From Sordariomycetes sp. S80-01Y (lineage: Eukaryota; Ascomycota; Sordariomycetes), in NCBI GenBank assembly GCA_037042185.1, contig JAXQJY010000033.1:1922001-1986000 (forward strand): DNA of 64,000 nt, read 5' to 3'. Each line of letters starts with the position of its first letter. The first letter of the stretch is position 1. The translations under genes and the position numbers were made by a program. Under the pieces are notes generated by a model. The model made no database searches. It was not told the origin of the DNA and was given only the letters and a program-made list of their open reading frames with translations. Positions 12,812 through 52,012 of the stretch are shown one piece after another.

Positions 12812-14401
12812 ATGCGCTCTGCGCAAATAAGATCCCCAGACGACTTTGAGCTCGAGTCTCTGGTCACCGACGACGAAGCCGACTTTGTCTCCTCGCCCGA
12901 CGCACCGTTAGCCATGTCACCACCTTCGGACCAGCAGCCCAAGTGGCTTTCTCAAACACACCAGCGTCCACGATATGTGCGATGGCTCTCCTGGCTCTCA
13001 ACCGCCACGCTGAGGCTTTTGAGGCCTCGTCTGACCTGGCGGTACGGTCTCTTCGCGACATTTGCGGCCTACTTCCTCTACTGTACCGTCGTCAGCTCAC
13101 CACTGCTGGCATCACCGCTGCCACCGTACAGGGGACCTCACGGAGTAGGCGCAGTCGACCTGGAAGTGCCTCTATCTAAAGGACCTCAGCGAGTTTCAGA
13201 TGCCGTCTTCCGTTCCGGCGATCCGGCATTTGACGTTGAGAGTGTTCTTGTCACGCTTTACTACCCTACCGATCCCGGATTTCGCTCGAGGAAGAGCCGA
13301 TATACCTGGATTCCCAAGCCTGTCAGCCTCACAGCAGAGGGCTACGCAAAGCTTGCTGGCATGAACAACTTCGTCATGCGACCAATCATGACATTTTTCC
13401 TCTGGGCTGTTGGCGGAGGCATCACAATCCCGGCAGAGGTCGACGCACCGCTGTTGTCTGTCGATGCAGGAGATGAGTTCCCTGTGTTGGTTTTTTCCCA
13501 CGGAATGGCAAGCTCAAGAACAGATTACACCAACTTTCTGGGCGAGCTCGCGTCTCGTGGCTACGTTGTCGCCGCTATAGAGCATCGCGACGGCAGCTCC
13601 CCGGGGAGCTTCATTAAGCTCACGTCATCGGAGACGGGGCGCAAGCGACTACACTTCAAGCAGTCTGAACTCAAGGAGGACATGGACACAGCTGATTTCA
13701 AGAAGGCTCAGTTGGCTTATCGGGATGCTGAGATCGGCGCTACGATTGATTTGTTGAAGTCCATCAACAAAGGCGATTCTATCAACAACACCCGGGCTGC
13801 AGTAGGCACGTTGGAAGACTGGTCCTCACGGCTCAACTTTTCCCAGCTCACAATTGGTGGTCACTCGTACGGCGCCACGGGAGCTCTACAAGCCCTGTCG
13901 ACCGTGGCCACAGACGCTGCAGCGGGCATCATCCTCGATCCTGGAAAGTCCTCGGGGCCTCTGAACCACGATGGCGAAGTTCCTCTTCTCGTAATTCACT
14001 CCAACTCATGGAGCAAGAAGAAGAGCATCTTCCACGGTCGACCGCACTTTGAGACAGTGCGAGACCTGGTAAAAGACACACCAGCACCAAGCTGGTTCTT
14101 CACAAGCCTCGGAACATCACATCCAAGCGTGACTGATGCACCTCTCCTGGAGCCTTTGTTGTTGAGCTGGACGACGGGGGCTAAGCTGGACGTCAAGCAA
14201 GCCCTGGAGGAGTACGTCAACACATCCGAGGAATTCCTCTCCTTCGTGGACACTGGAAAGACCGCAGCGGATGGTCTCTTGGCTGAGAAGGTCACCCACG
14301 AGGAGTATGGCGAATGGGTTAGCGAGCAGAGAAAGAAAGAGTTCCCGAAAACGCGGGCAAAGCTGTGGGAGATTCACGTGAGTCCGGACTTGAAAGAATA
14401 A
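12812..14401 (+). CDS. PAF acetylhydrolase-like lipase, membrane-anchored
   Basis: Uninterrupted frame of 529 residues, related to platelet-activating factor acetylhydrolase type II (alpha/beta hydrolase), which removes short or oxidised acyl groups from phospholipids. A hydrophobic stretch at about residues 85-105 (LFATFAAYFLYCTVVSS) suggests a type II membrane anchor after a cytosolic N-terminus of about 80 residues. The catalytic triad is readable: nucleophile Ser near residue 352 in GGHSYG, Asp near 376 in IILDPG, and His near 437 in GTSHPSVTD. The oxyanion region is VFSHGMASSRTDY. Family members usually have GHSFG, so Tyr after the Ser is a mild variant. The start follows a C/T-rich leader. 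Whether it belongs with the oxygenase cluster downstream is unclear, because its promoter lacks the shared palindrome. Confidence 0.9.
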   Translation: MRSAQIRSPDDFELESLVTDDEADFVSSPDAPLAMSPPSDQQPKWLSQTHQRPRYVRWLSWLSTATLRLLRPRLTWRYGLFATFAAYFLYCTVVSSPLLASPLPPYRGPHGVGAVDLEVPLSKGPQRVSDAVFRSGDPAFDVESVLVTLYYPTDPGFRSRKSRYTWIPKPVSLTAEGYAKLAGMNNFVMRPIMTFFLWAVGGGITIPAEVDAPLLSVDAGDEFPVLVFSHGMASSRTDYTNFLGELASRGYVVAAIEHRDGSSPGSFIKLTSSETGRKRLHFKQSELKEDMDTADFKKAQLAYRDAEIGATIDLLKSINKGDSINNTRAAVGTLEDWSSRLNFSQLTIGGHSYGATGALQALSTVATDAAAGIILDPGKSSGPLNHDGEVPLLVIHSNSWSKKKSIFHGRPHFETVRDLVKDTPAPSWFFTSLGTSHPSVTDAPLLEPLLLSWTTGAKLDVKQALEEYVNTSEEFLSFVDTGKTAADGLLAEKVTHEEYGEWVSEQRKKEFPKTRAKLWEIHVSPDLKE

Positions 14402-14531: not shown

Positions 14532-15896
14532 TTAGACGGGCAACACAACCTTGACACCCATATACTCCCTCTGGTGCATCAACTTTCCGTCGATGAGCAC
14601 CTGATCGGCACCGATCCTGTTTCGGACAGTGTCCGTTGGATCAGTAGCCGTCGCGATCTGGATCTCTCGCCACTCCTTGTTTGTGGGTACAAGTTGGCCC
14701 TTGGCCGTGCGGTTCTTGAATTCTTTGTACACGCCTTGCTCCTCAATACATCCCTCACGCTGAATCAGAGGGGATTCTGAAAGTAGGGTTAGCTAGGTTA
14801 AGAATATTTACTCCTGATGGATACTTACCCGTGGCAGGACCCATGCGAAGATCGCCGACGGAGCTGTTGAACAGCACAAGCGACAGGCGCTCCTGCTGAA
14901 GCTGGTCTGCAGGGGGCCTGAAGACCCTGTGCCTTGTAGCCTTGAAGTGCCCGCCAGACACGATCTCCAGGGTGTCACCGATGTTGATAACTAGAGCTCC
15001 TGGCTTGTACGGCACGTAGTACCACTGCTCGTCCCTGCCCCAGATCTGTAGGCAAGATATGGGAACCGAGAAGAGTAGTGTCGTCAGGCCAAAGTCAGTG
15101 TGACCATGCATCCTCAGGCCCTTGCTGGCTTCTTGGGTCTCCTTCTGCACAGGTCGGAAGAGCGCATGGCGAAAGTAGCCTTCGCCGGTAGGGCTGCCGT
15201 GGGATTGGACGTTGTCCCAAAGATAGTCATCGGGCAGCTCTAAAACGCGAGAGAAAAGTGTCAAGAGTCGACGATTAACGGAGTTGGTCAGATAGTTGCA
15301 GAATGCCTCGACTTCGTCCATCAGCGGCTGAATACACTTGGGCACACGATTCTCGATGTCGTCCCAATCCGGCTTGTACCAGTTGAATTGCTCGATACCA
15401 TCGGGAGGTCCGCGATTACGCTATGAGCAATATCAGTGTCTGTGAGAAGGTATCGGTATCGAAGACGCAGACCTTGAACCCGTAAGGGTGCTTGTAACCA
15501 GACCAGATCCCTTTATCGGGGCTGAAAAGGAGGCGCTCTTTGTCCTCTTCGCTGATATTGTCATAAAGATATTGTGCGATTCCAAACTGACGGTGGAGCT
15601 GTTATGATATTAGCATCACATTACATACAGACAACAGGAGCCAGACCGACCTGATCCAACGAGACTCCATAGTTCTCGAGGAAGAGAAAGCCGTCATCGC
15701 GGATAGCGATCTTGACCTGCTGGATCAGATTATCCACGACAGCAGGATCATCCGAGTCAAGCAAAGATAGGTCGATAGACTTAAGCCTCGCAAAACTCTC
15801 CTTCTCCTGTGTCACTGGCGGAGGGATCCATTGCTCGACCTTGGGCTTTCCAGGGAGGTCAGCCGGCGGCGGGTTGAAGGGGGCTGCTGGCGCCAT
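14532..15896 (-). CDS. 2-oxoglutarate/Fe(II)-dependent dioxygenase
   Basis: Soluble isopenicillin-N-synthase-like oxygenase that would use 2-oxoglutarate and O2 to hydroxylate or desaturate a small molecule. Four exons on the minus strand: 15896-15651, 15598-15473, 15420-14829 and 14776-14532, separated by four-way consistent 52-nt introns. The product is about 402 residues. The N-terminal DIOX_N part reads RDDGFLFLENYGVSLDQL. The iron ligands are His231 and Asp233 (GHTDFGLTTLL) and His288 (ATRHRV); Arg302 and Ser304 (ERLSLV) fit the 2-oxoglutarate carboxylate clamp. The last exon is a family-typical tail ending GVKVVLPV. It is divergent from the RidA gene at 16685, and the shared 788-bp promoter carries several GAGGAG palindromes. 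Substrate unknown; the neighbours suggest catabolism of an amino or hydroxy acid. Confidence 0.93.
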
Positions 15897-16412
15897 GCTT
15901 AGTCGTCGACAAGGGAGTTTGAGAGTGTACTAGGCGAGGATGATGCAGAGACAATGTAAAATACTGCTGGTTTTGAAATAGCGCGACTGTGCTTTATAAA
16001 ACGTTGACTCGAGAGGCTACGTGGAGGGGGCTCCCGTGCTGGTTGTGGTTGACTCCGGAGTAGCTCTTGTTGGGTTCAGTCGAGCTCCTCCTCTAGGCCA
16101 GACTGCCGATGTGCAAGGGCTTATGGACGTTACGAGTCTCATGATGCACAGCTTACTTTTCGACTCATCTTCCAAAAGCATCTCTAGTTCTCCACATCCA
16201 GTCGTTTGTATCCAGGACTATGATGGCCCCCGCCCCCTCATACACCTCGGCCTCCCGGCGCTCGGTCGTCACTCCGCGCCAGCTAGCCCAACCAGCTCCC
16301 ATGAGCTCCTCCTGGTCGCAAATGATCCCTTCTATGGGAAATCTCGCGATCGCGACACCAGAATAGCGCGAAAGTATCTTATCAGAGGAGCCAATTCCTG
16401 GCGCCGTGGGCG

Positions 16413-16430
16413 TGGGAGGAGCTCCTCCCA
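16413..16430. promoter_or_regulatory. 18-bp perfect palindrome, candidate operator
   Basis: TGGGAGGAGCTCCTCCCA is a perfect 18-bp dyad, two GAGGAG half-sites abutting head to head. It sits about 255 bp before the RidA start. Its 14-bp core recurs exactly at 18706-18719 in the next divergent promoter. This fits a dimeric C2H2 regulator such as the one encoded at 21509. Confidence 0.65.
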
Positions 16431-16464
16431 GATTTCCCAATCGGGCTATCCCCTCATCGTGTAA

Positions 16465-16481
16465 GCGGGAGCTCCTCCCGC
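16465..16481. promoter_or_regulatory. GCGGGAG-CTC-CTCCCGC inverted repeat
   Basis: Two 7-bp arms with a 3-nt centre form an inverted repeat that includes GGAGCTCCTCC. It lies 34 bp after the 18-bp palindrome. It is a variant or second site for the same regulator. Confidence 0.55.
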
Positions 16482-16684
16482 GGCCCCCTGTCCATCGATG
16501 GCCGTCACCAACGACGCAGAGCCGAGAACGGAGCTGAGATTTGGAGACAGGATATAATTGAAGTTCGATTGGGAGTTACCAGTTCAATCTCGAAGTTGAG
16601 CCCAGACCCCTCCCTGTCCCGTAACAAAGCATCAGCTACGGAAAACGAGCTCTAACCGTTCCCCTCCGAGAAAACACGCACAGC

Positions 16685-17146
16685 ATGTCTCGCCAACTCA
16701 TTTCCAGCGAAAAGTTCCCTCCCAAGCCTCACAACTGTACGTCTCACCAATATATCAAACAAGGAAAGTTGACACGCTGACAAGCCTCTTAGGTCCGGCG
16801 ACCAAGGTGCCCGGCCTGGTCTTCTTAGCTGGACAGACCGCCACAGGCGAGATCAAGCAAGCTACGGTAGATTCGCTCAATACCTCATATTGCTATGAGC
16901 TGGATGCTGACCACCGCACAGCGGACTGTGCTCCAAAACCTCAAGGAGGTCCTCGAGCTGTCCGGGTCGTCTCTCGAGCAGGTGGTCAAGTACAATGTCT
17001 ACCTTGCCGATATGAAGGACTTCGCAGCGATGAACGAGGTCTATATTGAGGTTCTACCCAAGCCCATGCCTTCGCGTTCCTGCTTGCAGGCGCTGCCTCC
17101 CGGTGCGGGAACCGTGATCGAGATTGAGTGCATTGCTCAAGTGTGA
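16685..17146 (+). CDS. RidA/YjgF family imine deaminase
   Basis: Small RidA-family protein (endoribonuclease L-PSP domain), which hydrolyses reactive 2-imino/enamino acids such as 2-aminoacrylate to 2-oxo acids plus ammonia. Three exons, 16685-16736, 16793-16866 and 16922-17146, give about 116 residues. The first intron splits a Cys codon (GTACGT donor, TTAG acceptor); the second is phase 0 (GTAGAT donor). Visible motifs are FLAGQTATGEI near residue 28, NLKEVLELSGSSLEQVVK, VYLADMKDFAAMNEVY and PSRSCLQA. The Arg of the last motif corresponds to the carboxylate-binding Arg essential in active RidA members. The chain ends IEIECIAQV as in the family. It has no obvious mitochondrial leader, unlike the housekeeping homologue of many fungi. 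Clustering with the oxygenase and aldolase suggests a pathway-specific role. Confidence 0.92.
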
Positions 17147-17571
17147 GGGCAAAGGGATGAACAGTAATAGAAATACATAAAGGGAAACAGCCTCATTCAA
17201 TAAGGATCTCCGCTTTTTTAAATTTTGACGTATCTTGTCGCACGGCCTTGTCAAGCGCTTCGCCTACAGTTCTGTGTATAGACGCGTTGCAAATTGCCAA
17301 CCATGTGATACGAATGTGAAACGGTAATCCATGGGAGCACGTGGTGTTTGGCGATTCAAAGAGCGATTAGTCTCTATCAAAAGCTCTTTGGGTGCTGCTA
17401 AGAAAAGATCAACTTGTCCGAACAATGCCAACATAAGGCCTACGCTGCCTACGACATTGTCACTCCATCTTCGTGACAATCGTGACTTGTGCTCTTGACT
17501 TAGCGAGGGAAAGCGTATTTATTGGGGCTGATATATATTTTCTGGCTCTATGGATGCATATGTCTTTTGTC
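17147..17571. other. intergenic, convergent 3' ends
   Basis: Tail-to-tail spacer between the RidA gene and the aldolase gene. It has no coding or repeat signal. Confidence 0.6.
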
Positions 17572-18372
17572 TTATGACCTGGCTACTTCAAGCTCGGCAA
17601 TGTACCAGTTCTGGATCGCTTTGGTGTCGCCAGTCATGGCAACCATGTCGTACCTCTTCCTCGCCTCTTTGGCCGTCTCTCCATTGTTCACCATCCTGCC
17701 AGCCCATTTTCCTTGCTTTCTAGCTGAATCAATGATCTTGTTGACAGCATCAACGAATTGAGGTTCATCGCCCTTCGCAGGGGTGTACCCAAGCAGGGAC
17801 TGGGCGAGGTCGTTGGGTCCGATGAAGGCCATGTCGACTCCAGGCACGGCGCAGATCTCCTCGACATTGTCGACGCCGGCCTTCGTCTCGATCTGGATCA
17901 TGGTGATGATCGTCTCGTTCGCCGACTTCATGTATTCGGGCGTCGTCAGACCGTGACCAATGGCTGGGAACGCTGAGCCCTGCCCGCGAACGCCCTGAGG
18001 AGGGAATTTGGAGGACGCAACGATTTGCCTAGCTTCCTCGGCGTTGTTGATCTGTGGAACCATGATTCCGTGAGCGCCTGTGTCCAAGGCGCGCTTGATG
18101 ATGTCGTGCGCAGGGCCGCGGATGCGAATGATGGGTGACACTCCGAGAGCCGCGATTGCAGCGACGGAGTTATGCATCGAGTCGTCTCCGATGTGACCGT
18201 GCTCGCAGTCGATTATGATGCCATCAACTCCTGTCAAGGCGACTATCTGGGCCATGCGCACGGAAGGCAAGGCCATGAAGGTCAAGACAGGGTACTCGCC
18301 GGCTCTGAGCTTGTTGAGCAGCTTGAGGCGAGGGTTCTCGATCTTTGTGGTTTGAGGAGTTGGCCAGCTCAT
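17572..18372 (-). CDS. HpcH/HpaI-family 2-oxo-acid aldolase
   Basis: Class II, metal-dependent aldolase of the HpcH/HpaI family, which cleaves 4-hydroxy-2-oxo acids to pyruvate (or a related 2-oxo acid) plus an aldehyde. Single exon of 266 residues, a normal length for the family. The key residues are readable: His58 in DCEHGH as catalytic base, Arg85 in IRIRGP for pyruvate binding, and metal ligands Glu162 in QIETKAG and Asp188 in GPNDLAQ. The TIM-barrel strand pattern is otherwise intact, so it should be active. No targeting signal, so probably cytosolic. It is transcribed away from the MFS transporter gene, and their shared promoter contains the GGAGGAGCTCCTCC palindrome. Natural substrate unknown; a citrate-lyase-beta-like role is less likely given the HpaI-type active site. 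Confidence 0.93.
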   Translation of the reverse strand: MSWPTPQTTKIENPRLKLLNKLRAGEYPVLTFMALPSVRMAQIVALTGVDGIIIDCEHGHIGDDSMHNSVAAIAALGVSPIIRIRGPAHDIIKRALDTGAHGIMVPQINNAEEARQIVASSKFPPQGVRGQGSAFPAIGHGLTTPEYMKSANETIITMIQIETKAGVDNVEEICAVPGVDMAFIGPNDLAQSLLGYTPAKGDEPQFVDAVNKIIDSARKQGKWAGRMVNNGETAKEARKRYDMVAMTGDTKAIQNWYIAELEVARS

Positions 18373-19207
18373 AGTTGCGGCTGAAGTTTCGATGCAATTT
18401 CAGTTTGTCCTTTTACTTGGACTCGTCAAGTTCCTTTTGTGCGGAAAAGCTTGAAGACGGGTGAAGTAGGTGGTGTAAGGATGGATCGAGGTCGAAAGGC
18501 CAGAAATGAAGTTGAGTAGAGGGACAAGACGCCAGAATTTGTCCGATTTCGCTCAGAGCTCCGCATCCCCAACATTTGAAACGTCATTATCGTGACCCAT
18601 AAGCGTGAGGAGCACCTTGCTTGCATTTTCAGACGAGAAGCGGAGGTTGGGGAGGTGTCGAAGTCACCATCCCCCAGTTCCCTATCTCCCTCCGCCGCCC
18701 CACCGGGAGGAGCTCCTCCGCAGCTGGTCGATATCGTATGCGCTTCCACGAGTCAGGCATTCTCATCATTGGGAGAGTCGGTATCTCTACGAACCCCAGA
18801 TATCGCTCGCGTGGTGAACACTCCATCTTTAGGGGTCGCGACCAGTCAGGTCGTCGCGAAATTTGGGCGCTCCTCCCAGGACTCTTATCTCGTGATATCC
18901 AGCCGTGGCAACCAACCTCAATCTAACGACTATTGAGGCGGGCGTCCAGACTGGCTGCGGCGTCCTGTCTTGGAGCAACCAATGGGTTCCCATTACAAAT
19001 AGTTTGGTCCAGACGCCTAGAGAAAGGCGAACCTCATCTGGAACCCGCAGCTTTTGGGTGCTCTGTCGTGTAATACCCCGGATTTCGTTGCGCAACTCTG
19101 CCACTTCCTATCAGAACTTCTGGCAAGCTCAAATACCGGCTGCTCCCGGGCCCAGACGTTTCTATACCGAAGGTCTTCAGCTCAATTCTTCCCCATTGTT
19201 GCGCACC
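18373..19207. promoter_or_regulatory. bidirectional promoter of aldolase and transporter
   Basis: The shared upstream region carries GAGGAG at 18607-18612, the palindrome at 18706-18719 and CTCCTCCC at 18870-18877. An in-frame extension of the transporter N-terminus starting at 18905 is open but looks non-coding. This promoter mirrors the oxygenase/RidA promoter. Confidence 0.6.
18706..18719. promoter_or_regulatory. 14-bp palindrome GGAGGAGCTCCTCC
   Basis: This perfect dyad of two GAGGAG half-sites is identical to the core of the palindrome at 16413-16430. It lies about 333 bp before the aldolase start and 500 bp before the transporter start. It is a candidate site for the cluster regulator. 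Confidence 0.62.
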
Positions 19208-20750
19208 ATGGACGCCAAAGAAACGCACTCCGATATCAAAGACGCGGCTTCGTCGCAGCTCGACATTGCCGTGATCACTCAGCGCGTGCCCGAGTCCCTC
19301 CGAAACATGGACGAGGAAGAGAAATCTCGACTGAATAAGAAGCTCGTCCGGAAGATGGACGCCATAATTCTTCCCATAATCGGTATCTTGTACATTCTTA
19401 ATTATATCGACCGCCAGAACCTGGCGGCGGCCAAGCTCCAGGGCATCATGGAAGATCTCAACATGACAACCCAGGAGTTTGCTACGGCCATCTCGATTCT
19501 TTTCGTCGGCTATCTGCCCTTTCAGATTCCCAGCAACATGATCATCACCAAGATTTCCCGACCCGGAATGTGTAAGTCCTCCCTCCTGTTCGAGCAAGCC
19601 TCTGCTGACACACTCAGACATCTGCGCTGCCGTCATTATCTGGGGTTCCATCTCCGCAGCCACTGCCACTGTGAAGACATACGGTCAGCTTCTTGCAGTC
19701 CGCGCTGTGCTTGGGGTGGCTGAGGCTGTCTTCTTCCCGGGAGCCATCTATTACCTGTCCGCCTGGTATACCAAAACCGAACTTGGGAAGCGCATCGCTA
19801 GTCTGTATATTGCCCAGCAAGTTGGAAACGCCTTCGGAGGTCTCTTTGCTGCGGGTATCTTCCAGCTTGACGGTGCGCACGGAATCAGAGGCTGGCAGTG
19901 GCTTTTCATCATTGAAGGAGCCGCCACTGTCGGCATTGGTATAGTTTGTGCTTGCCTGATGCCCGAGTTCCCTCACAACAGTCGCATCTTGTCACCTCTC
20001 GAGCGCGACCTTGCAGTCTGGCGCATCGAGTCTGAAGCTGGGGCTGCAGAAGGCACTGAAGACGAAAGTGTCTTCAAGGGATTCTACAAGGCCCTCACGG
20101 ACCCGAAGCTTCTCCTGCTCATCTTCTGCAATATGATGTCCCAGGCCCAAGGGTCGATTGCGAACTACTTCCCCACGCTCGTGGCCTCTCTCAACTTTGG
20201 CAGCACGATCAGCCTCCTTCTGACTGCTCCCCCTTACATACTCGCGGGCGCCGTCTACTACGGAATTACGTGGTACTCTGATCGCAAGAATGTTGCGTAT
20301 CCCATCATTCTGAGCTGCATTGCAATCGCATGCACCATGTATGTCATTCCGATGGCAACACTCAACGTCGGAGCTCGATACTTCTCCATGATGGTCCTCC
20401 CCTTCGCCTCCGTCGGACCCCAGCTTCTCCTTTACAAGACCATCAACTTGCACTTGGCCCGCCCGGTATCCAAGCGCGCTGCTGCGTCAGCCCTGGTCAA
20501 CGCTATCGGCGGCACGGCCAACATCTGGGCTTCGTACCTTTACTACGCCCCACCTCAGTTCTTTGCTGCTTTCGGAACACTCATGGGCTGCGCAGCCCTC
20601 TTTGCCGCTACCATCACGTTTTACAGGTGGCTCGTACGCCGCGAGAACAAGCGGCTTGACTCAGGTGACCCTGAGCTCGTTGTAAAAGTCATGAAAGGCG
20701 GTGTTACCGATGAGATGGTTCAGCTCAACTGGCGCTACGAAATGTACTAA
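19208..20750 (+). CDS. MFS transporter, Dal5-like anion:cation symporter
   Basis: Twelve-helix major facilitator of the anion:cation symporter (allantoate/nicotinate permease, Dal5-like) family, likely importing an organic acid or amino-acid derivative. Two exons, 19208-19571 and 19618-20750, join across a 46-nt intron (GTAAGT donor, CTCAG acceptor) within SRPGMYICAAV; about 498 residues. Family hallmarks are RKMDAIILPIIGILYILNYIDRQN in helix 1, NMTTQEFATAISILFVGYLPFQIPSN, RAVLGVAEAVFFPGAIYYLS in helix 4, and a cytosolic loop FLMP-like region ending helix 6. The ATG at 19208 (MDAKETHSD) was chosen because the upstream 101-residue in-frame extension has no family similarity. It pairs divergently with the aldolase and precedes the regulator, so it is the probable uptake system of the cluster. 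Confidence 0.92.
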
Positions 20751-21508
20751 GATGTGAAGATGGACTGAGCCTGGTTGATGATTTTTGACATGTAAATACT
20801 GATGCACACCGTCACGACTCTTGAGGGACCGGGTTTAGGACATTCAAGACCTTGAGATAGACTCGACCTTTTCGATAAACAAACCAGAGTCTTCTCGAAA
20901 AGAGCGAAGACGTCCTTGCAGACAATGACGCTCATGGCGTAAACTTCACTCTCCTGTTGCTCAGCAGTAATTCTGAACGCGTGACCTCCAGCTCCCTTGG
21001 CACCCTACCAAGTCTGAGCTTTCCCCATCCACCTCCACACGCTATGGGAACTGGCACTAACCCCCACAAAGCTCGGAAGCCAGGTAAACTCCAAGCGGAG
21101 TCGCCTCGATGAGTCTGCGAAGCTTGCAAGGCTCTTGAGGGAAAAGGCGCTGGGCTACTTGTCAGTAAATCTAAGCATCTGTTGCCGAATGGTGACGGGC
21201 ACAACACTAATAACTCCCGCCCTGAACCGCCACAGATAGTACATGTGCATGCTCACTGATAGAGAAACCCTAGCGTCAATGTCTGCGGCGAATGGCAACA
21301 CTTGTACAAAGAGTTCCCACAGATAAGCCGGTGGGGAGGCCGCAGCATTAACGCAACAATGTCCGGGGGTTCGGCACTATCTTGCACGCGGGGACTTGCC
21401 GGCTCATGCACCTCGCTTCCCTCCCGATTCCGGTGACTTTCACCAACCATTAGACACATCTCGGTTGAGTTCAATTTGCTCCCTTGCCGCCGTGCTCTGA
21501 TCGCCAAA
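20751..21508. other. intergenic, regulator promoter
   Basis: The spacer lies between the transporter and the transcription factor, both on the plus strand. I saw no GAGGAG palindrome here, which would fit a regulator that does not control itself. No other feature seen. Confidence 0.55.
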
Positions 21509-23365
21509 ATGTCCACCGCGGAACCTACCCAAGCTGTACCATCTCAGCCCTTTCAATGCCACATCTGCCGTGGCCGCTTCACCCGTCATGAGAACCTCAA
21601 ACGCCACGCAGCACTTCACTCGCGCTCTGAAAACCAATCATCGTTGCCGTGCACTATCTGCGATACGACATTCTCGCGACCGGACTTGAGGAGTCGGCAC
21701 ATGAAAAGAAAACATCCAGGGTTCGAAGAACAGAGGGTTAACACCAAGAGTGGGCGCAGAAGAGATGGAGTACCTTCGGCTTCGCCGCCAGACTCGACGG
21801 CCGTGACCACAACACCCCAAGACGAGTGCTCAATGAATCAGCCTTTATACAAGCCCCATCTTCTAGAGTCGAGTCTCCTGTCCTTCTTGAACTCGGATCA
21901 GCAGTTTGATATTCCTGTGCCGGAGTTGTCGCCATTCAGTATCGCGCAATCAACACCTGAGCGGTCCCTCACGGACGATATCCATCCAACCCCTCAACAA
22001 AAAGACTGGTCGCCTTCTCCCCGACAGATCGCCACTGGCTGCGCGCTCTTCTTCAAGCACGTGTCAGATTTCCTACCTTTTCTCCATCAAGCGACTTTCG
22101 ACCCCGAGGAGACACCCCGACATTTGCTCTATAGCATCCTGTCTTTGGGGTATCAGCATGGCGGCGACCCTGACTGCACAGATAACCAAAGCTTAGATGT
22201 GAGCCTGTCAACACGGTGTTTCCATAGTGCCAGGCGCTTGATCTCATGCGAGGAGATCGAATCAGGAGCCTCGGCAAATGCTCCATTGCACAGCATCTCC
22301 ATCGTTCAATCCTATCTCTTGCTACAGATTTGTGCCATGATGTATCTCTGCGGAGAAGAATCAACGCATGGTCTCAAAATGCACCCGAAAATGGTTTCGC
22401 TCGCAAGATCAAGCGGACTCATGCAGCCAGCCCCAGCCAATAGATCAGGGACAAACGATCTCGAAGCTCTATGGCGGGAGTTCATCGATGCAGAGTCTCG
22501 AAAGCGCACACTGCTCGCAGTGCACCAGGTCGATGCTCTCTGGTATCAACTTCTCTCGATACCCAGGTCTCTCTCGCATCTCGAAATAAAACACTCTCTA
22601 CCCTGTCCAGAAGACTCATGGACAGCTTCGTCTTCTGCGGAATGGGCACATCGACAACTTGTGGCTCCGCCTTCTGGTCCTATGCTGCAATATACTGATG
22701 CAGTACGACTATTCATCTCCCCCGATGCGGACGTGGGTTCGATTCCGCCTTTCGACCCTTATGGTGCCATCAACATCACTCAGTTCCTCCTCTCAAGTGC
22801 AAGGGAGATATCAGGCTGGTCAACGATGACAGGGTGTCTAAGCATGGAACGTCTTGAGCCGCTTCGGTCGTCGTTGGTAGCTCTGAGGCCCTACATACCA
22901 TATGAAGAAACCGCGACAAGCACGAGAATTACATCATGCAAAGCAACATGGGAAACAGCAATGATCGAGCTTCAGCTCTGGTCTCCTTCTCACACATGCG
23001 GGATAGTCGAAGGATCCCTGGACGCAATGCTATCACAATCAGCTTTGCTGGCACCCAATAGAGAGTTCCTTTGCGAGTCAAGCACCGCCAGGGCTGTGCA
23101 AACTCATGTAGATTGGTTCTTAAGATATCTGGACCGAACGTCAACAGTCGAGTCTGAAGCTCCGTGGGTGACGTTATATGCATACAAGGCGGTTTTGATA
23201 GCTTGGCAGCTGGTTGTCAGCGGATTGCCTGGTGCTATGCAAGCTGTTGGCATCCGGGATGGTGATGCAGAGGGTGCTTTGGAATGGGTGAGACAAGTGT
23301 TTCGACGACGCGAGAAGTGGCAGTTGGGGAGATTAATTATGAAATGCTTAGTCGACCTCAAGTGA
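21509..23365 (+). CDS. C2H2 zinc-finger / fungal_trans transcription factor
   Basis: Nuclear DNA-binding regulator of about 618 residues in one exon. Two C2H2 fingers lie at the N-terminus: C17/C20/H33/H37 and C48/C51/H64/H69. Recognition helices read RHENLKR (R at -1, N at +3, R at +6) and RPDLRSR (R at -1, D at +2, R at +6), an arrangement like yeast Adr1. A simple contact code predicts GAG for finger 1 and GNG for finger 2, so 5'-GNGGAG-3'. The GAGGAG half-sites in the two cluster promoters match. The middle-to-C-terminal part (about residues 180-500) has the fungal-specific transcription-factor middle-homology region, including the ESRKRTLLAVHQVDALWY-type segment. The start is the ATG with good context (CAAAATGTCC). 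It is likely the pathway-specific activator of the adjacent genes; that link is inferred. Confidence 0.92.
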   Translation: MSTAEPTQAVPSQPFQCHICRGRFTRHENLKRHAALHSRSENQSSLPCTICDTTFSRPDLRSRHMKRKHPGFEEQRVNTKSGRRRDGVPSASPPDSTAVTTTPQDECSMNQPLYKPHLLESSLLSFLNSDQQFDIPVPELSPFSIAQSTPERSLTDDIHPTPQQKDWSPSPRQIATGCALFFKHVSDFLPFLHQATFDPEETPRHLLYSILSLGYQHGGDPDCTDNQSLDVSLSTRCFHSARRLISCEEIESGASANAPLHSISIVQSYLLLQICAMMYLCGEESTHGLKMHPKMVSLARSSGLMQPAPANRSGTNDLEALWREFIDAESRKRTLLAVHQVDALWYQLLSIPRSLSHLEIKHSLPCPEDSWTASSSAEWAHRQLVAPPSGPMLQYTDAVRLFISPDADVGSIPPFDPYGAINITQFLLSSAREISGWSTMTGCLSMERLEPLRSSLVALRPYIPYEETATSTRITSCKATWETAMIELQLWSPSHTCGIVEGSLDAMLSQSALLAPNREFLCESSTARAVQTHVDWFLRYLDRTSTVESEAPWVTLYAYKAVLIAWQLVVSGLPGAMQAVGIRDGDAEGALEWVRQVFRRREKWQLGRLIMKCLVDLK

Positions 23366-23589: not shown

Positions 23590-26500
23590 TTAGATGAATG
23601 CCGCGGGTGAACTCCTCATGTTGAGATCGTGCTCGTTGAACTTTTTGTGTCTGCTGTTTAGAAATGAATCCACCATCTTCTTGCTGTCCACTGTGTGCAC
23701 CTCGCTAGAGCTCTCAGACCACGGATCCGAAGGCAAGCCCTTAACATGAAGACTTCTGCAAGTGCTCTGCGCTCGAGTGCCCGCGTTAGGCCTTCCAAAT
23801 TGCTTCTCAACCGCTGCAGTCAATCCTGGACTAGACTTAAGAGACGATGCCGTGTCCCCGGCAGCCCACATCCGCGCTCGACGCCGCTTTGCAACTTCTT
23901 CTTCTTTCACTGAACTGGGCTGTGATAGAGTACCAAGAGAGACCGCTCCTCGTAAAGATGCGTTTTCCTCGCGCATGAATGCATGTGAGTGGGTCTGGTC
24001 TGAGATGACTAGTGCTGGTGTTGATCTGGAGCTACTCCTGGTTCGAGCATCTTGCGCCTGTATTGACCCGCTGGCCTTGCTAACAGCGTCTCCGAATGAG
24101 GCGCTGTTTTCACCTTGTGGAGAATCGTTCATCTGGAGTATCGGAACTTCCTGCGTGGGTCGGGATAACCGTTTGCCTATCCTCCAATTCCCTAGAGTGC
24201 TGTTGCTAGAGGTCTCAATGTTCAAGAAAGGCGAGCAACCAGTTTCAGGGGGAGGCTCAATTTCTGCTTTCTCTCTTACATGTCCTTGTCGAGGAACAGA
24301 ACCCAGCGAGTTTGAGGAATTTGGCTTGGAAAAATGTCGGCCGCCCTCAAGCTGCGCCAGGTGGGAACTGAGCCATGTCTTCCACTCAACTGAGCTAGTT
24401 GTTGATACGTCTCGAGTTGGACGTCGAGGACTGGGAATCACTGTTCGAGAGGTATATATGGTTGCATTGCCGAGAGATGCGAGCTGCGGTGGAACAGGAA
24501 ACTTTGTCACTAGTGACGAGTCCATCGTTCTGTCATCCGTCGTGGTGGAGTATGTGCTTTCAACGCAGTCATCACGACCGGTAGCTTCCGATTTGCATGA
24601 GCTCGGATGCCTAGTAGGTAAGCTAATAGCGGACATGGATCTAAGATAATCTGTTTCTGCCTCCTGGGAGGACTCTAGGGGCCTCGGGTCTGTCTCTATA
24701 TTCATGCTCTCTCGGAGTGCTCGTCGGAAAGGGCTGGCTGTGCGGAACAAGTGGTTTGACGGACTGGCGAAAAAGGCCGAACTCCGATTGGTAGTGGTCT
24801 TGAATCGGTCGAGCTCCAGGTTAGAGTGCATTCTTGGTTTTGATGGAGAATCACACTTTTCGATCAACTTCTCTGACCATGGATTGGGGGACCCATTGGT
24901 TGATGCTACTGGGTGAATGAACTTGCGGCTCCGTCTGATGATACTCCGGGGAGAGCCGGAATCCCTAGAAGTAGTATTGCTTGCGCTGTCTTGAAAAACG
25001 TCGTCTTCAGGCTGGACGCATCGAATCGTAGGTGGCGACCATGCCTGGCCGTCACATAGTCGATCAACAGAACTGCTTCGTGGAGGTGGCCGACCGAGGC
25101 TGCGCATCTTGTCCACGCTCATTCTTCTGGTATCTTCTTCATTTTTCCCGGAGTCGCGAGCCCGCCTCATGAGAGCAGAGTAGACGCGTTGACTATCGAC
25201 GGCAATCGCTTTTCCGATTGCATAGTCTTGACTGGCCATAGAAGACCGAGGTCGCGAGGCAGAGACATGCAGTCCGTTCTCTTTGATCACTGACAGGCGT
25301 TGGCGCTCCCAATCCCCCTGATCAGCATGAGTGGTTGCCGTATTGGTTAGTGAATCAGTCCAACTCGTTACTCTGGACTTGTCGTCGGAAATGGGGTCAT
25401 GATCTCCTTCATAGCTGTCGAGACTTCCTCTTTGGGACTTCAACTTGTACGGCGACGAGACTGTGTGGACCGATGTGATGCGGGAAGGCCCCCGTGATAT
25501 GGAGGCTTCTTCGTGGAAAGCCGGCGGTTCGACATGCAAAGAAAAGTCGTCGTTCCTGGCTTGGATCTCGGAAACGTGCCTCGTCAAAGACGCTGAAGTA
25601 TCCGATGTCCGCCGCCCAAACATGCCTTTCAATTTTGTTTTAATGGAGCTTGATACCTTTCTCGCCGTCTTCTTGAGACTGCCTTGCTTGGATGCCGCAA
25701 TGCTATACCCAGAAACAGCGGACGAAAGTCCTGCGCTTTGGTTGCTGCTATTTCGCATTGACTTGCGCCAGCCCATCGAACTATCAGCACGACGGGCCCT
25801 CGATTGCAAGAACATGGATGAGTGAGGCTTGAGTTGAGATTGTCCCTCAACTTCCTCACGGAATTTCTGCCGCGCCAACTGTACTGCCAAGTCGTTCTCA
25901 GCGTGGGTAGTTGAACAGGAACTCGTATTGACCCGGCGATTTCGCAAAAAGCTCATCGACTTTGGGGCTCGCAAAGCTGGCATATCACTTCCAGAAAGAG
26001 GTGTGTTTTCCTTGTTCAGGTGTGCGTAGCGAGACGTTGCTTGGACACGTTGGTGCTGCGCTGGGCTGTTGTCAAGGCAATAGCCAACACTTAGGGGGTC
26101 CGAGGTAGTGAGCATGGACTTCGACATGCGTATTCTTCTTCTATCAGTCGACGATACCATGCCGGTCTTGTCTTCGGGCACCAAGCAGTCGTTGGATCTT
26201 TGCATCAAGCGCAAGGGATTAAAAGATCGTGAAGTGATGCCGACATCGTGACTGCCTGAAACGACACTCTTGGCTCGTCTGTCTATACCACGAGCGTCGG
26301 TGGTTGCACGACTGGTACTGGACGTCGGGGTCACTAGGCGCTCATTAGGCCGTGAGGCCAGAGCTGTACTCGGACGAAATTTGGGAGCGGCGAAGCGCAC
26401 GCTCTGCTGGCGAGAGAGATGCCAGTCGCTGCCATTGCTGCAATCGACCAACTGACTATGACCAAGGTCATGTCGGTCAGTGCGGCCACCGTTGCCGACC

Positions 26501-26721
26501 AGACCCATTGAAGAGCTCTCTTGTGAGAGGTTTGCCATGCCCTCACTTCTCCTATTATGCGCCCTTTGGTATGATAATCGTGCTGCAATGTGAGCGTCCC
26601 TCTGGCCAGCGTAGGGGTCTCTATGCAATACAGCAATTCGGTTGTCGGCAATGCAACTGGTGGACTTGCTCCGACCAAGAGGGCGTTGCTGCTTGCACTT
26701 GGTATCTTTCCTGCGCAGCAT
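23590..26721 (-). CDS. large disordered Ser/Arg-rich hypothetical protein
   Basis: Intronless frame giving about 1,043 residues from the ATG at 26721 (MLRRKDTKCK). The frame stays open further upstream but that part is Leu/Cys-rich and unlike the rest. Composition is Ser/Arg/Pro-rich with many RRSS-like phosphorylation-type motifs and few hydrophobic stretches, so most of it should be disordered. A short strongly basic amphipathic segment occurs near residue 365 (KKTARKVSSSIKTKLKGMFG). An ordered-looking core follows around PISDDKSRVTSWTDS and WERQRLSVIKENG, a motif I associate with conserved fungal proteins of unknown function. No enzymatic domain or membrane helix. It may be a scaffold of the cell cortex or septum, but there is no direct evidence for that. 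Confidence 0.75.
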   Translation of the reverse strand: MLRRKDTKCKQQRPLGRSKSTSCIADNRIAVLHRDPYAGQRDAHIAARLSYQRAHNRRSEGMANLSQESSSMGLVGNGGRTDRHDLGHSQLVDCSNGSDWHLSRQQSVRFAAPKFRPSTALASRPNERLVTPTSSTSRATTDARGIDRRAKSVVSGSHDVGITSRSFNPLRLMQRSNDCLVPEDKTGMVSSTDRRRIRMSKSMLTTSDPLSVGYCLDNSPAQHQRVQATSRYAHLNKENTPLSGSDMPALRAPKSMSFLRNRRVNTSSCSTTHAENDLAVQLARQKFREEVEGQSQLKPHSSMFLQSRARRADSSMGWRKSMRNSSNQSAGLSSAVSGYSIAASKQGSLKKTARKVSSSIKTKLKGMFGRRTSDTSASLTRHVSEIQARNDDFSLHVEPPAFHEEASISRGPSRITSVHTVSSPYKLKSQRGSLDSYEGDHDPISDDKSRVTSWTDSLTNTATTHADQGDWERQRLSVIKENGLHVSASRPRSSMASQDYAIGKAIAVDSQRVYSALMRRARDSGKNEEDTRRMSVDKMRSLGRPPPRSSSVDRLCDGQAWSPPTIRCVQPEDDVFQDSASNTTSRDSGSPRSIIRRSRKFIHPVASTNGSPNPWSEKLIEKCDSPSKPRMHSNLELDRFKTTTNRSSAFFASPSNHLFRTASPFRRALRESMNIETDPRPLESSQEAETDYLRSMSAISLPTRHPSSCKSEATGRDDCVESTYSTTTDDRTMDSSLVTKFPVPPQLASLGNATIYTSRTVIPSPRRPTRDVSTTSSVEWKTWLSSHLAQLEGGRHFSKPNSSNSLGSVPRQGHVREKAEIEPPPETGCSPFLNIETSSNSTLGNWRIGKRLSRPTQEVPILQMNDSPQGENSASFGDAVSKASGSIQAQDARTRSSSRSTPALVISDQTHSHAFMREENASLRGAVSLGTLSQPSSVKEEEVAKRRRARMWAAGDTASSLKSSPGLTAAVEKQFGRPNAGTRAQSTCRSLHVKGLPSDPWSESSSEVHTVDSKKMVDSFLNSRHKKFNEHDLNMRSSPAAFI

Positions 26722-27390
26722 CACCAAACGTAGTCGATGCAGTCTGTCGCAAAGGGTGGTGGCTGTGCTCAGATCTTGTCTCGACCCAGTTGTGCGTAAT
26801 TCTGCTAAACATTCGGATATGTGATACGGCGCGGGGCTGAGCGATACGAAGCAGCTTTCGCAAAGTTGAGGCCTCTCAGACGTCAAGGCTGTGAGCAGAT
26901 GATGATGGAGGAGAGCAAGACCGATTTCAGTGTTTCGAAGGGCCAGAACCAGCAAGATGAGCCGTCGGGAGCATGGAGCGCATGCAGGAAGGGCCCGGGT
27001 CTTGCTATTTCGCACAGCCGGACATCAATCGTTAGCCACGTCTTGAAGATCGGGCAGGAGGTTGTGGTAAGAAAACATGGCCAGAAAGGACCAACTGACC
27101 AAGGGGGCAGGCGCAAAAGCATAAAACCCAGCGGGAATCAGTGGCGACCATCAAAGTGCTCAAGGAAAAGGTGTCGGCTCGAGATTAGAAGGAAATGTAT
27201 TGAGACTACCTGCCCGCGTGTCATATGCATTCTAGATCAACGGAAGATTTCTCCCACACAGCGAGTACACGTGTCTTGAAATGCAAAACATCAAAGGAAA
27301 TATGTGTAGAACCCTAACTTCTACGCCTAAATGCATACCCAAAAAATCTCAGCCTGGTGTCATGTGTGTCCGTGTAACTTCGCAAGTTAC
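26722..27390. other. intergenic, no gene seen
   Basis: The region lies between the large Ser-rich gene and the stop of the protease gene, both on the minus strand. The part next to 26721 is open upstream of the chosen start, so a longer N-terminus cannot be excluded. Confidence 0.5.
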
Positions 27391-50314: not shown

Positions 50315-51212
50315 TTAGTCTCGCTTTTGTGAAGTCGAATGGTAAGTAACTTTGCCCAGCCCATTCTTGTTGATGATGGCGCTGTCCTGAAGAAAATCAG
50401 TACAAGTACGTCGCGAGAGAAGTCTAATGACCTACCAGCATTGTCTCCCACCCCAGCCATGACAAAAACCAAGCTACCCACACCATGCCGCCTTTCCAAA
50501 TGACCGCCCCCGTCTTCTCCCTCAACATCTCATCCACCACGGCGTCAGCATACTCCTCGCGAGTCTGAGGATTCTTTTCGGCGAAAGGTGCCTTGCTTTC
50601 GATCATACTCCTCAGGCTGCCGTACAGACTGTCACTGGGCAATGCCGCTTTCGAGTTTGATGTCATGTCTGTGGTAACGACCCCAGTCTTGACTACCATA
50701 GTCCTCACGCCCAGAGGAGCAAGCTCACGCCGCATAGTCCGCATCATGGCTTCGACGGCTGCTTTGGACGAAGCATAGCTAGCGATGAACGGAGGGCAGA
50801 ACACGGAGGAGATGCTGCTTATCGCCACCACCAACCCCTGAGCTTCTAGCAACAACGGCAGAAAGGCATGCGTGGCAGCCCAGACGCCGAAGACATTGAC
50901 ATCATACACTCGCTTCACTTCTGAGGGTGATGTGTCGGCGAAAGGTTTAATCTGGAGGACCCCGGCATTATTGATCAGAATATCCAGACGCCCGCCAGTG
51001 AGTTCTTTGACCTTTAGAACGGCCGTACTGATGGAGTCTTCGCATGTGACGTCCAGTGTGAAGGTCTCAATCCCTATTGTGCTGAGCTCAGAATCGATTT
51101 CTGCTGTTGTTCGGCCTGTCGCGAAGATGCGGTGACCGCGCATATGGAGGGTTTTGGCGAGGGCGGAGCCTATACCTCCCGGGCCACAACCTGTGATCAC
51201 GATGGACTTCAT
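50315..51212 (-). CDS. short-chain dehydrogenase, Ayr1-like
   Basis: Classical SDR oxidoreductase, about 282 residues, similar in layout to 1-acyl-dihydroxyacetone-phosphate reductases (Ayr1). Exons 51212-50436 and 50386-50315 join across a 49-nt phase-0 intron (GTAGGT donor, TACTGAT branch, TTCAG acceptor); without the splice the frame runs into a stop three codons later. The cofactor motif is TGCGPGGIG at residues 8-15, NNAG lies at 81-84, catalytic Ser is near 135 (ISSISS), and Tyr146 and Lys150 form YASSK. A C-terminal hydrophobic stretch (VWVAWFLSWLGW) suggests membrane or lipid-droplet association. The start is the ATG immediately before the Rossmann strand (MKSIVITG). Substrate unknown. 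Confidence 0.88.
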
Positions 51213-52012
51213 CGAAATGGAAGGTTTAAATTGATTTGGACCTTCAAATTCAGCTGTCAGATGATAGTTAGAAGGGATGGCGACGAGTGCGACCTCTTGT
51301 TTAGGATGTTCGGACAGTAAGAAAGGAGGCGACACTGTGTCGGGGGGTTTTAACTACACGGTATCGGAAGCAACAGATATATCTGCCAGGGGTCAAACAC
51401 TTATTTCAAAGTATTGCTCACTGCGGCCAGGCTCTTAGCATGGTGTTTCTTTTGACTTAAGGTCTGGGGTTGTTGGTCTGTCCGAATGTTCTTCACAACT
51501 GGAACGCTTAAACATTCACTCTCCAGGCTCGCAGTGTTTTGTATAGTTTGTATACCCACCCTGTATATCAGCGTAGGTATCTCGCGCTTTCTCATATATA
51601 CAAGCATGAGACCAAGCATCGATTGATTAGTTGATGTCGTGACTGTGAATGTTGAGATCACGAAGGGGGTATGCCTCCACGATGGCAATATGCAGCAATC
51701 GGAGCCGCTAGCTCATGTTCTACTGACAAAATTAATGCAGTGATTGAGGCGGGACCATCCACGGCCTTTTGCTGCTTGTATTTTATCTTTATGTCAGGAC
51801 CCTTACTGCCATCGGCTGCATGAACCTGTTCACAGAGGCCACTGACATCACTACGTCTCAACCAGTGCTAACTGCTACCTGGTGCTAATCAGATAACCTG
51901 AACTGCTGCCTCGGCCGCCGCGTCACCCGCCCTTCATCTCGACTGTCGCTTACTTATTTTCCTTCACAAGCAATCCTTCATCACATTTATACCAACTAGA
52001 CATCAATCGAGC
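51213..52012. other. divergent intergenic region
   Basis: Shared upstream region of the dehydrogenase and the unknown gene at 52013. No coding or repeat signal seen. Confidence 0.55.

Follow-up and report, generated by a model that had tools for sequence, protein, structure and literature searches.

The substrates of many fungal catabolic clusters have yet to be determined, and five adjacent genes in Sordariomycetes sp. S80-01Y raise a prior question: do such neighbours form one system, and what controls it? The genes lie fully within positions 14532-23365 of the window, by which we mean the whole 64,000-nucleotide stretch analysed here (contig JAXQJY010000033.1 of assembly GCA_037042185.1, positions 1,922,001 to 1,986,000), part of a genome of 30,874,049 bases on 16 contigs, whose short introns and fungal_trans-type regulators mark it as fungal. 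An earlier note had read them as a candidate catabolic cluster made up of an oxygenase, a RidA protein, an HpcH/HpaI aldolase, an importer labelled Dal5-type and a C2H2/fungal_trans regulator. Splice models and Pfam searches bear out the presence and adjacency of all five, the importer as an MFS protein. Joint control of the oxygenase, RidA, aldolase and importer genes now appears likely, and is well supported by the sequence, because both of their divergent promoters carry a rare palindrome; the proposed chemistry is possible, with family names as its sole basis. With a probability of roughly 0.55, we read the five genes as a catabolic cluster that also forms the centre of a small regulon with unlinked members, under the cluster's own C2H2 regulator.

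The genes stand in the order oxygenase (-), RidA (+), aldolase (-), importer (+) and regulator (+):

14532-15896, minus strand: 2-oxoglutarate (2OG)/Fe(II) oxygenase, isopenicillin-N-synthase-like, 402 residues (ATG at 15896, stop codon ending at 14532)
16685-17146, plus strand: RidA/YjgF-family protein, 116 residues (ATG at 16685; introns 16737-16792 and 16867-16921)
17572-18372, minus strand: HpcH/HpaI-family class II pyruvate aldolase (HpcH_HpaI), 266 residues, intron-less
19208-20750, plus strand: MFS importer (MFS_1), 498 residues, one intron ending at 19617
21509-23365, plus strand: C2H2/fungal_trans regulator (Pfam) with two zinc fingers, 618 residues, intron-less

Coordinates and strands confirm that four of the genes form two divergent pairs. 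The oxygenase and RidA genes diverge from 788 bp of intervening DNA (promoter 15897-16684), the aldolase and MFS genes from 835 bp (promoter 18373-19207), and the RidA and aldolase genes are convergent.

A palindrome common to two promoters

The case for joint control comes from a series of related sites within the two promoters:

16413-16430, no strand assigned: 18-bp perfect palindrome TGGGAGGAGCTCCTCCCA, oxygenase/RidA promoter, with the core GGAGGAGCTCCTCC at 16415-16428
16081-16091, minus strand: extra site GGAGGAGCTC(G), oxygenase/RidA promoter
16302-16312, minus strand: extra site GGAGGAGCTC(A), oxygenase/RidA promoter
16468-16478, minus strand: extra site GGAGGAGCTCC, oxygenase/RidA promoter
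18706-18719, no strand assigned: second perfect palindrome GGAGGAGCTCCTCC, 14 bp, aldolase/MFS promoter
18866-18876, minus strand: weaker site GGAGGAGCGCC, one mismatch, aldolase/MFS promoter

The exact 14-mer GGAGGAGCTCCTCC is found at four places in the 30,874,049 bases, and its reversed control at none; two of the four are the divergent promoters of the cluster. These promoters have a palindromic 14-mer and a 15-mer in common, whereas among 2000 paired dinucleotide shuffles of the same DNA a common palindromic 14-mer never arose and a common 15-mer arose four times. The shorter form GGAGGAGCTC occupies four separate sites in the oxygenase/RidA promoter, and over the 1623 bp of both promoters it gives 7 matches at 5 places, against about 0.014 expected, a figure derived arithmetically from its 267 matches genome-wide. 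With at most one mismatch allowed, GGAGGAGCTCC matches the window 14 times, compared with a mean of 1.9 in 100 shuffles (largest 6), and 8 of the 14 matches fall within the two promoters, which make up 2.5% of the window. Matches listed in the open-licence literature on the motif were unrelated, judging by title.

The candidate regulator and its predicted targets

The product of the last gene scores 83.3 bits for Fungal_trans and 31.9 bits for C2H2. Helix positions -1 to 6 read RHENLKR in its first finger and RPDLRSR in its second. By the zinc-finger recognition code, finger 1, with Arg, Asn and Arg at -1, 3 and 6, presumably specifies G-A-G and finger 2 presumably G-N-G, so that together the fingers should favour GNGGAG. 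The palindrome consists of two GAGGAG half-sites placed back to back, and from this code we infer that the C2H2 regulator binds it. The regulator has no close paralogue in the genome (next best E 3e-6), and RHENLKR appears in none of the six other fingers listed, which come from seven loci.

Of the four exact copies, three belong to promoters that serve an importer, an aldolase, RidA or the oxygenase, while one stands before a hydroxyacid dehydrogenase gene. Outside the cluster, the C7 copy has an MFS importer gene on one side and a class II aldolase gene (F_bP_aldolase, 288 bits) on the other, and is also adjoined by an FMN-dependent dehydrogenase gene and by a gene resembling D-erythronate dehydrogenase (one exon scores 276.5 bits, against a cut-off of 325). 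One importer of this region is the nearest relative of the window importer among the six loci compared, matching it at 46% over 443 residues and at 57-78% over three shorter pieces. The C10 copy is a 20-bp palindrome immediately before a D-2-hydroxyacid dehydrogenase gene (150.7 bits). A palindrome with one mismatch, GGTGGAGCTCCTCC, lies in non-coding DNA at C2:405700-405713 (L039 4001-4014), some 300 bp upstream of the likely start, judged by eye, of a second 2OG oxygenase gene, and makes the C2 locus a possible member of the regulon. The earlier note had treated the system as complete with these five genes, whereas the palindrome suggests two, perhaps three, additional loci. The predicted regulon would be compact, with seven or eight genes at three or four loci. 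Given a named candidate regulator and a concrete predicted site, its control and substrate should therefore be within reach of a few ordinary experiments.

Within 10 kb to the left and right of the C7 copy, visual inspection shows two D-2-hydroxyacid dehydrogenases, further importers and an aldolase of the dihydrodipicolinate-synthase type. The wider 30 kb (C7:199600-229300; L011, L009 and L012) appear by eye and Pfam to be a dense acid-catabolism region, and include several MFS importers, zinc-cluster-like regulators and a gene resembling membrane dipeptidase. An isocitrate-lyase/PEP-mutase-like gene, at a distance of about 7 kb from the palindrome on C10, sits by an MFS importer and a Baeyer-Villiger-type monooxygenase (L013 6527-7705, within C10:574800-584699; by eye). 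The second 2OG oxygenase gene, at C2, is flanked by zinc-cluster-like genes (by eye), and at C9:534800-540800 (L068) a class II aldolase is accompanied by a short-chain dehydrogenase and an MFS importer, the last two assigned by eye.

The enzymes and a possible route

The oxygenase model, one chosen among 12 listed, has three GT..AG introns (15650-15599, 15472-15421 and 14828-14777) and scores over the cut-off for both 2OG-FeII_Oxy (56.9 bits) and DIOX_N (39.1 bits). Alignments to solved relatives, which cover both H-x-D and the distal H, show that its signatures are preserved: H-T-D...H corresponds to the H-x-D...H that we take to be the iron ligands, and R-L-S to the R-x-S that we take to be the 2OG ligand. 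Genes for 2OG oxygenases are present in multiple copies across the genome. A scan of bacterial and archaeal genomes with the window's oxygenase, pattern-based and so reaching close relatives only, gave nine pattern matches and no confirmed relative. The RidA protein scores 80.5 bits for Ribonuc_L-PSP and 76.8 bits for TIGR00004, below the cut-off of 106.25 in a collection (NCBIfam) built for bacterial and archaeal proteins. Alignment to solved relatives shows its R-S-C (with the conserved Arg) and E-I-E stretches, presumably the catalytic residues, to be intact, and the stretch following about residue 34 to be about 8 residues shorter than its equivalent in 6l8p. The family accounts for 13 match rows at 11 places genome-wide; RidA proteins also act as general scavengers.

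The aldolase (HpcH_HpaI, 114.7 bits, over the cut-off) likewise retains, in alignment to solved relatives, the D-x-E-H, R, E and D positions that we assume to be metal-binding and catalytic. It is not assignable to the HpaI, GarL or YfaU class, and its substrate cannot be named, because all four NCBIfam equivalog models that match it fall far under their cut-offs; the bacterial 2-keto-3-deoxy-L-rhamnonate aldolase model matches below cut-off. Scanning bacterial and archaeal genomes with the aldolase yielded 13 loci with 31-42% identity in the best segment. At four of these (L055, L056, L058 and L065), seven of ten neighbouring open reading frames (ORFs) have a Pfam family, and none of the ten is a RidA protein or a 2OG oxygenase. 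The importer scores 125.5 bits for MFS_1, and of the NCBIfam models it best matches TIGR00893, a D-galactonate transporter subfamily, at 149.5 bits, short of the cut-off of 395; it probably takes up an organic anion.

How might these parts work together? In the presence of an inducer, the C2H2/fungal_trans protein would bind the inverted GAGGAG half-sites of GGAGGAGCTCCTCC as a pair of molecules and turn on the oxygenase, RidA, aldolase and importer genes jointly from both divergent promoters, while acting as well on the C7 importer/class II aldolase pair and the C10 D-2-hydroxyacid dehydrogenase gene. An organic anion brought in by the importer would receive a hydroxyl from the oxygenase, an imine arising en route would be hydrolysed with the help of RidA, and the HpcH/HpaI aldolase would cleave the resulting 4-hydroxy-2-oxo acid to pyruvate and an aldehyde. 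The C10 dehydrogenase and the second aldolase, at C7, would process related hydroxy acids. The imine could be supplied by an unlinked aminotransferase or oxidase; alternatively, the oxygenase may make a carbinolamine beside nitrogen that collapses to the imine. It is possible that RidA acts on an imine of this route, and the substrate and the order of steps are guesses from the protein families only.

In our reading, a small regulon serves to import a hydroxylated organic or amino acid and to split it by aldol cleavage. The unlinked partners, namely a second importer/aldolase pair, a hydroxyacid dehydrogenase and an erythronate-dehydrogenase-like gene, suggest that the substrates are sugar acids or poly-hydroxylated acids of another kind, and not aromatic compounds. 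More tentatively, and at clearly less than even odds, the locus may represent an undescribed fungal route that joins 2OG hydroxylation, a RidA imine step and pyruvate-forming retro-aldol cleavage under a dedicated C2H2 regulator, with targets, including the unlinked importer/aldolase pair and hydroxyacid dehydrogenase, marked by the rare GGAGGAGCTCCTCC. Among the matches listed from the open-licence literature, no published cluster with this five-gene set was found. Should the proposal be right, it would provide a case of fungal RidA use inside a dedicated catabolic route, and would add to the pathway-specific C2H2 regulators represented by HxnR, which PMC5746545 describes as unusual.

The genes on either side do not look like parts of the cluster:

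left flank: PAF-acetylhydrolase-like gene (Pfam), apparently outside the cluster
23590-27024, minus strand: 1144-codon open frame of serine-rich appearance, right flank, apparently outside the cluster

A Pfam search with the 1144-codon frame returned no match. The PAF-acetylhydrolase-like open frame contains a 16-bp perfect palindrome, AGCTCCCCGGGGAGCT, at window positions 13595-13610.

Alternative readings and known systems

Several observations weigh against a regulon built on the cluster and its palindrome. The significance of the palindrome is after the fact, since the motif was first spotted in the promoters and then counted, and the window holds six perfect palindromes of at least 14 bp, four of them of other sequence. 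The region upstream of the regulator gene (20751-21508) has no palindrome within three mismatches. At C10 the palindrome ends 3 bp before the ATG (4927 of L010) and is overlapped by a longer open frame, so it may be part of a leader and not of a promoter. As the earlier note had said, none of the five genes encodes an aminotransferase or an amino-acid oxidase, nor is there an amine oxidase among them. Looser forms of the motif fare poorly against their reversed controls: 38 matches (19 places) against 68 for the 14-mer with at most one mismatch, 49 against 95 for the 11-mer form, and 267 against 306 for the 10-mer form. The spaced arrangement GGAGGAG N(1-8) CTCCTCC gave 2 matches (one place, on both strands) against 12 (6+6) for the control, and that place, at C9, falls inside a 618-codon open frame. 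Since none of these forms is enriched, the exact, unspaced palindrome alone is informative. Of the 15 further one-mismatch places beyond the exact copies, eight fall within open frames of at least 200 codons, four within frames of 100-199 codons, and three (at C2, C12:1679074 and C14:1342470) outside any frame of at least 100 codons. In frame, the motif encodes Glu-Glu-Leu-Leu. At C9, an 11-mer close to another class II aldolase was considered as a regulatory site and rejected, as it lies in a coding exon and looks accidental.

The alternative that deserves most attention accepts that the palindrome co-regulates the four genes and supposes that a different factor, for instance a zinc-cluster protein or a broad regulator, binds it, leaving the C2H2 gene a bystander. 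The missing site in the regulator's own promoter and the zinc-cluster-like genes seen by eye near the C7, C10 and C2 loci would suit such an arrangement, although the finger residues match the half-site by the recognition code and the C2H2 gene adjoins the cluster. According to PMC5746545, pathway-specific regulators in fungi are generally Zn2Cys6 proteins and C2H2 ones usually broad, yet HxnR, as described there and in PMC8478523, is a precedent for a pathway-specific C2H2/fungal_trans protein. On balance we think a different binding factor unlikely, though to be taken seriously. A bystander role for more of the locus, with five neighbours that have no joint pathway and with RidA and the oxygenase engaged in unrelated clean-up, would be in keeping with the multiple genomic copies of both families; it seems improbable, because the rare palindrome is common to both divergent promoters and recurs at a further importer/aldolase pair, at C7.

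The remaining alternatives assign the genes to known routes. RidA and the aldolase could make up the lower part of an amino-muconate (meta-cleavage) route, with RidA serving as 2-aminomuconate deaminase and the aldolase making the final 4-hydroxy-2-oxo acid cleavage. Both families fit, and a YjgF/RidA gene recurs in a fungal 3-hydroxyanthranilate cluster as a putative 2-aminomuconate deaminase (PMC7842363). We nevertheless regard this as a long shot: the other enzymes of that cluster are absent from the five genes and from 18 additional window ORFs that were tested, the single gene for 3-hydroxyanthranilate dioxygenase detected in the genome is on C12, some 2.15 Mb from the sole RidA match listed there, and the 2OG oxygenase would have no evident role. 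Least credible of all is a diverged nicotinate (hxn) cluster. The two have in common a C2H2 regulator, a 2OG oxygenase (HxnY) and an MFS importer (HxnP), hxnP and hxnY are likewise divergent (PMC8478523), and a short-chain dehydrogenase, not compared with HxnW, lies 27 kb off at 50424-51353 of the window. Against this, RidA and the aldolase are not hxn kinds, neither word occurring in the text of PMC8478523, and the predicted HxnR site, GHGGGG, is unlike GAGGAG. Moreover, thymine-7-hydroxylase, the closest structural homologue of HxnY according to PMC9304392, ranks far down among the solved relatives of the oxygenase (about 1e-5, the best match having 6e-16). Apart from that dehydrogenase, Pfam identified no hxnS/T/X/W/V/M/N-type enzyme in the five genes and 18 of the 23 other window ORFs of at least 230 codons, the search being confined to the window.

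Several described systems share features with the cluster under its candidate C2H2 regulator. The fungal 3-hydroxyanthranilate cluster is the sole described fungal cluster with a RidA-family gene that we encountered, and as in the present case that gene lies beside oxidative enzymes (PMC7842363). None of the five genes corresponds to the dioxygenase, decarboxylase or semialdehyde dehydrogenase of that cluster.

The fungal L-rhamnose pathway includes an L-2-keto-3-deoxyrhamnonate aldolase, LRA4/LraD, which is of the HpcH/HpaI type found here and forms pyruvate and an aldehyde. In contrast to that pathway, the five genes include no sugar-acid dehydratase, lactonase or rhamnose dehydrogenase, and its regulator RhaR is reportedly a Zn2Cys6 protein (PMC4245848), not a C2H2 one.

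Adr1 of Saccharomyces cerevisiae has, like the candidate regulator, two C2H2 fingers, both of which align (2adr, E 3.7e-9); animal proteins such as CTCF score higher. The Adr1 site, given as TTGGRG in PMC3897899, is G-rich too and differs from GAGGAG, and Adr1 is a broad carbon-source regulator.

The hxn system of Aspergillus nidulans comes closest in design. As described in PMC5746545 and PMC8478523, it combines a regulator, HxnR, with C2H2 fingers and PF04082 (fungal_trans), a DIOX_N 2OG oxygenase and MFS importers, and, as proposed here, places divergent pairs and several unlinked clusters under one regulator. The HxnR site was predicted from the fingers as GHGGGG, relaxed to GNGGDG, with no binding test (PMC8478523), whereas the site predicted here is an inverted GAGGAG repeat; the S80-01Y cluster also has a RidA protein and an HpcH/HpaI aldolase, and the HxnY-like enzyme is the only enzyme kind in common. 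Judged by its genes and sites, the cluster is not an hxn member, and it resembles hxn in its mode of control and its type of regulator.

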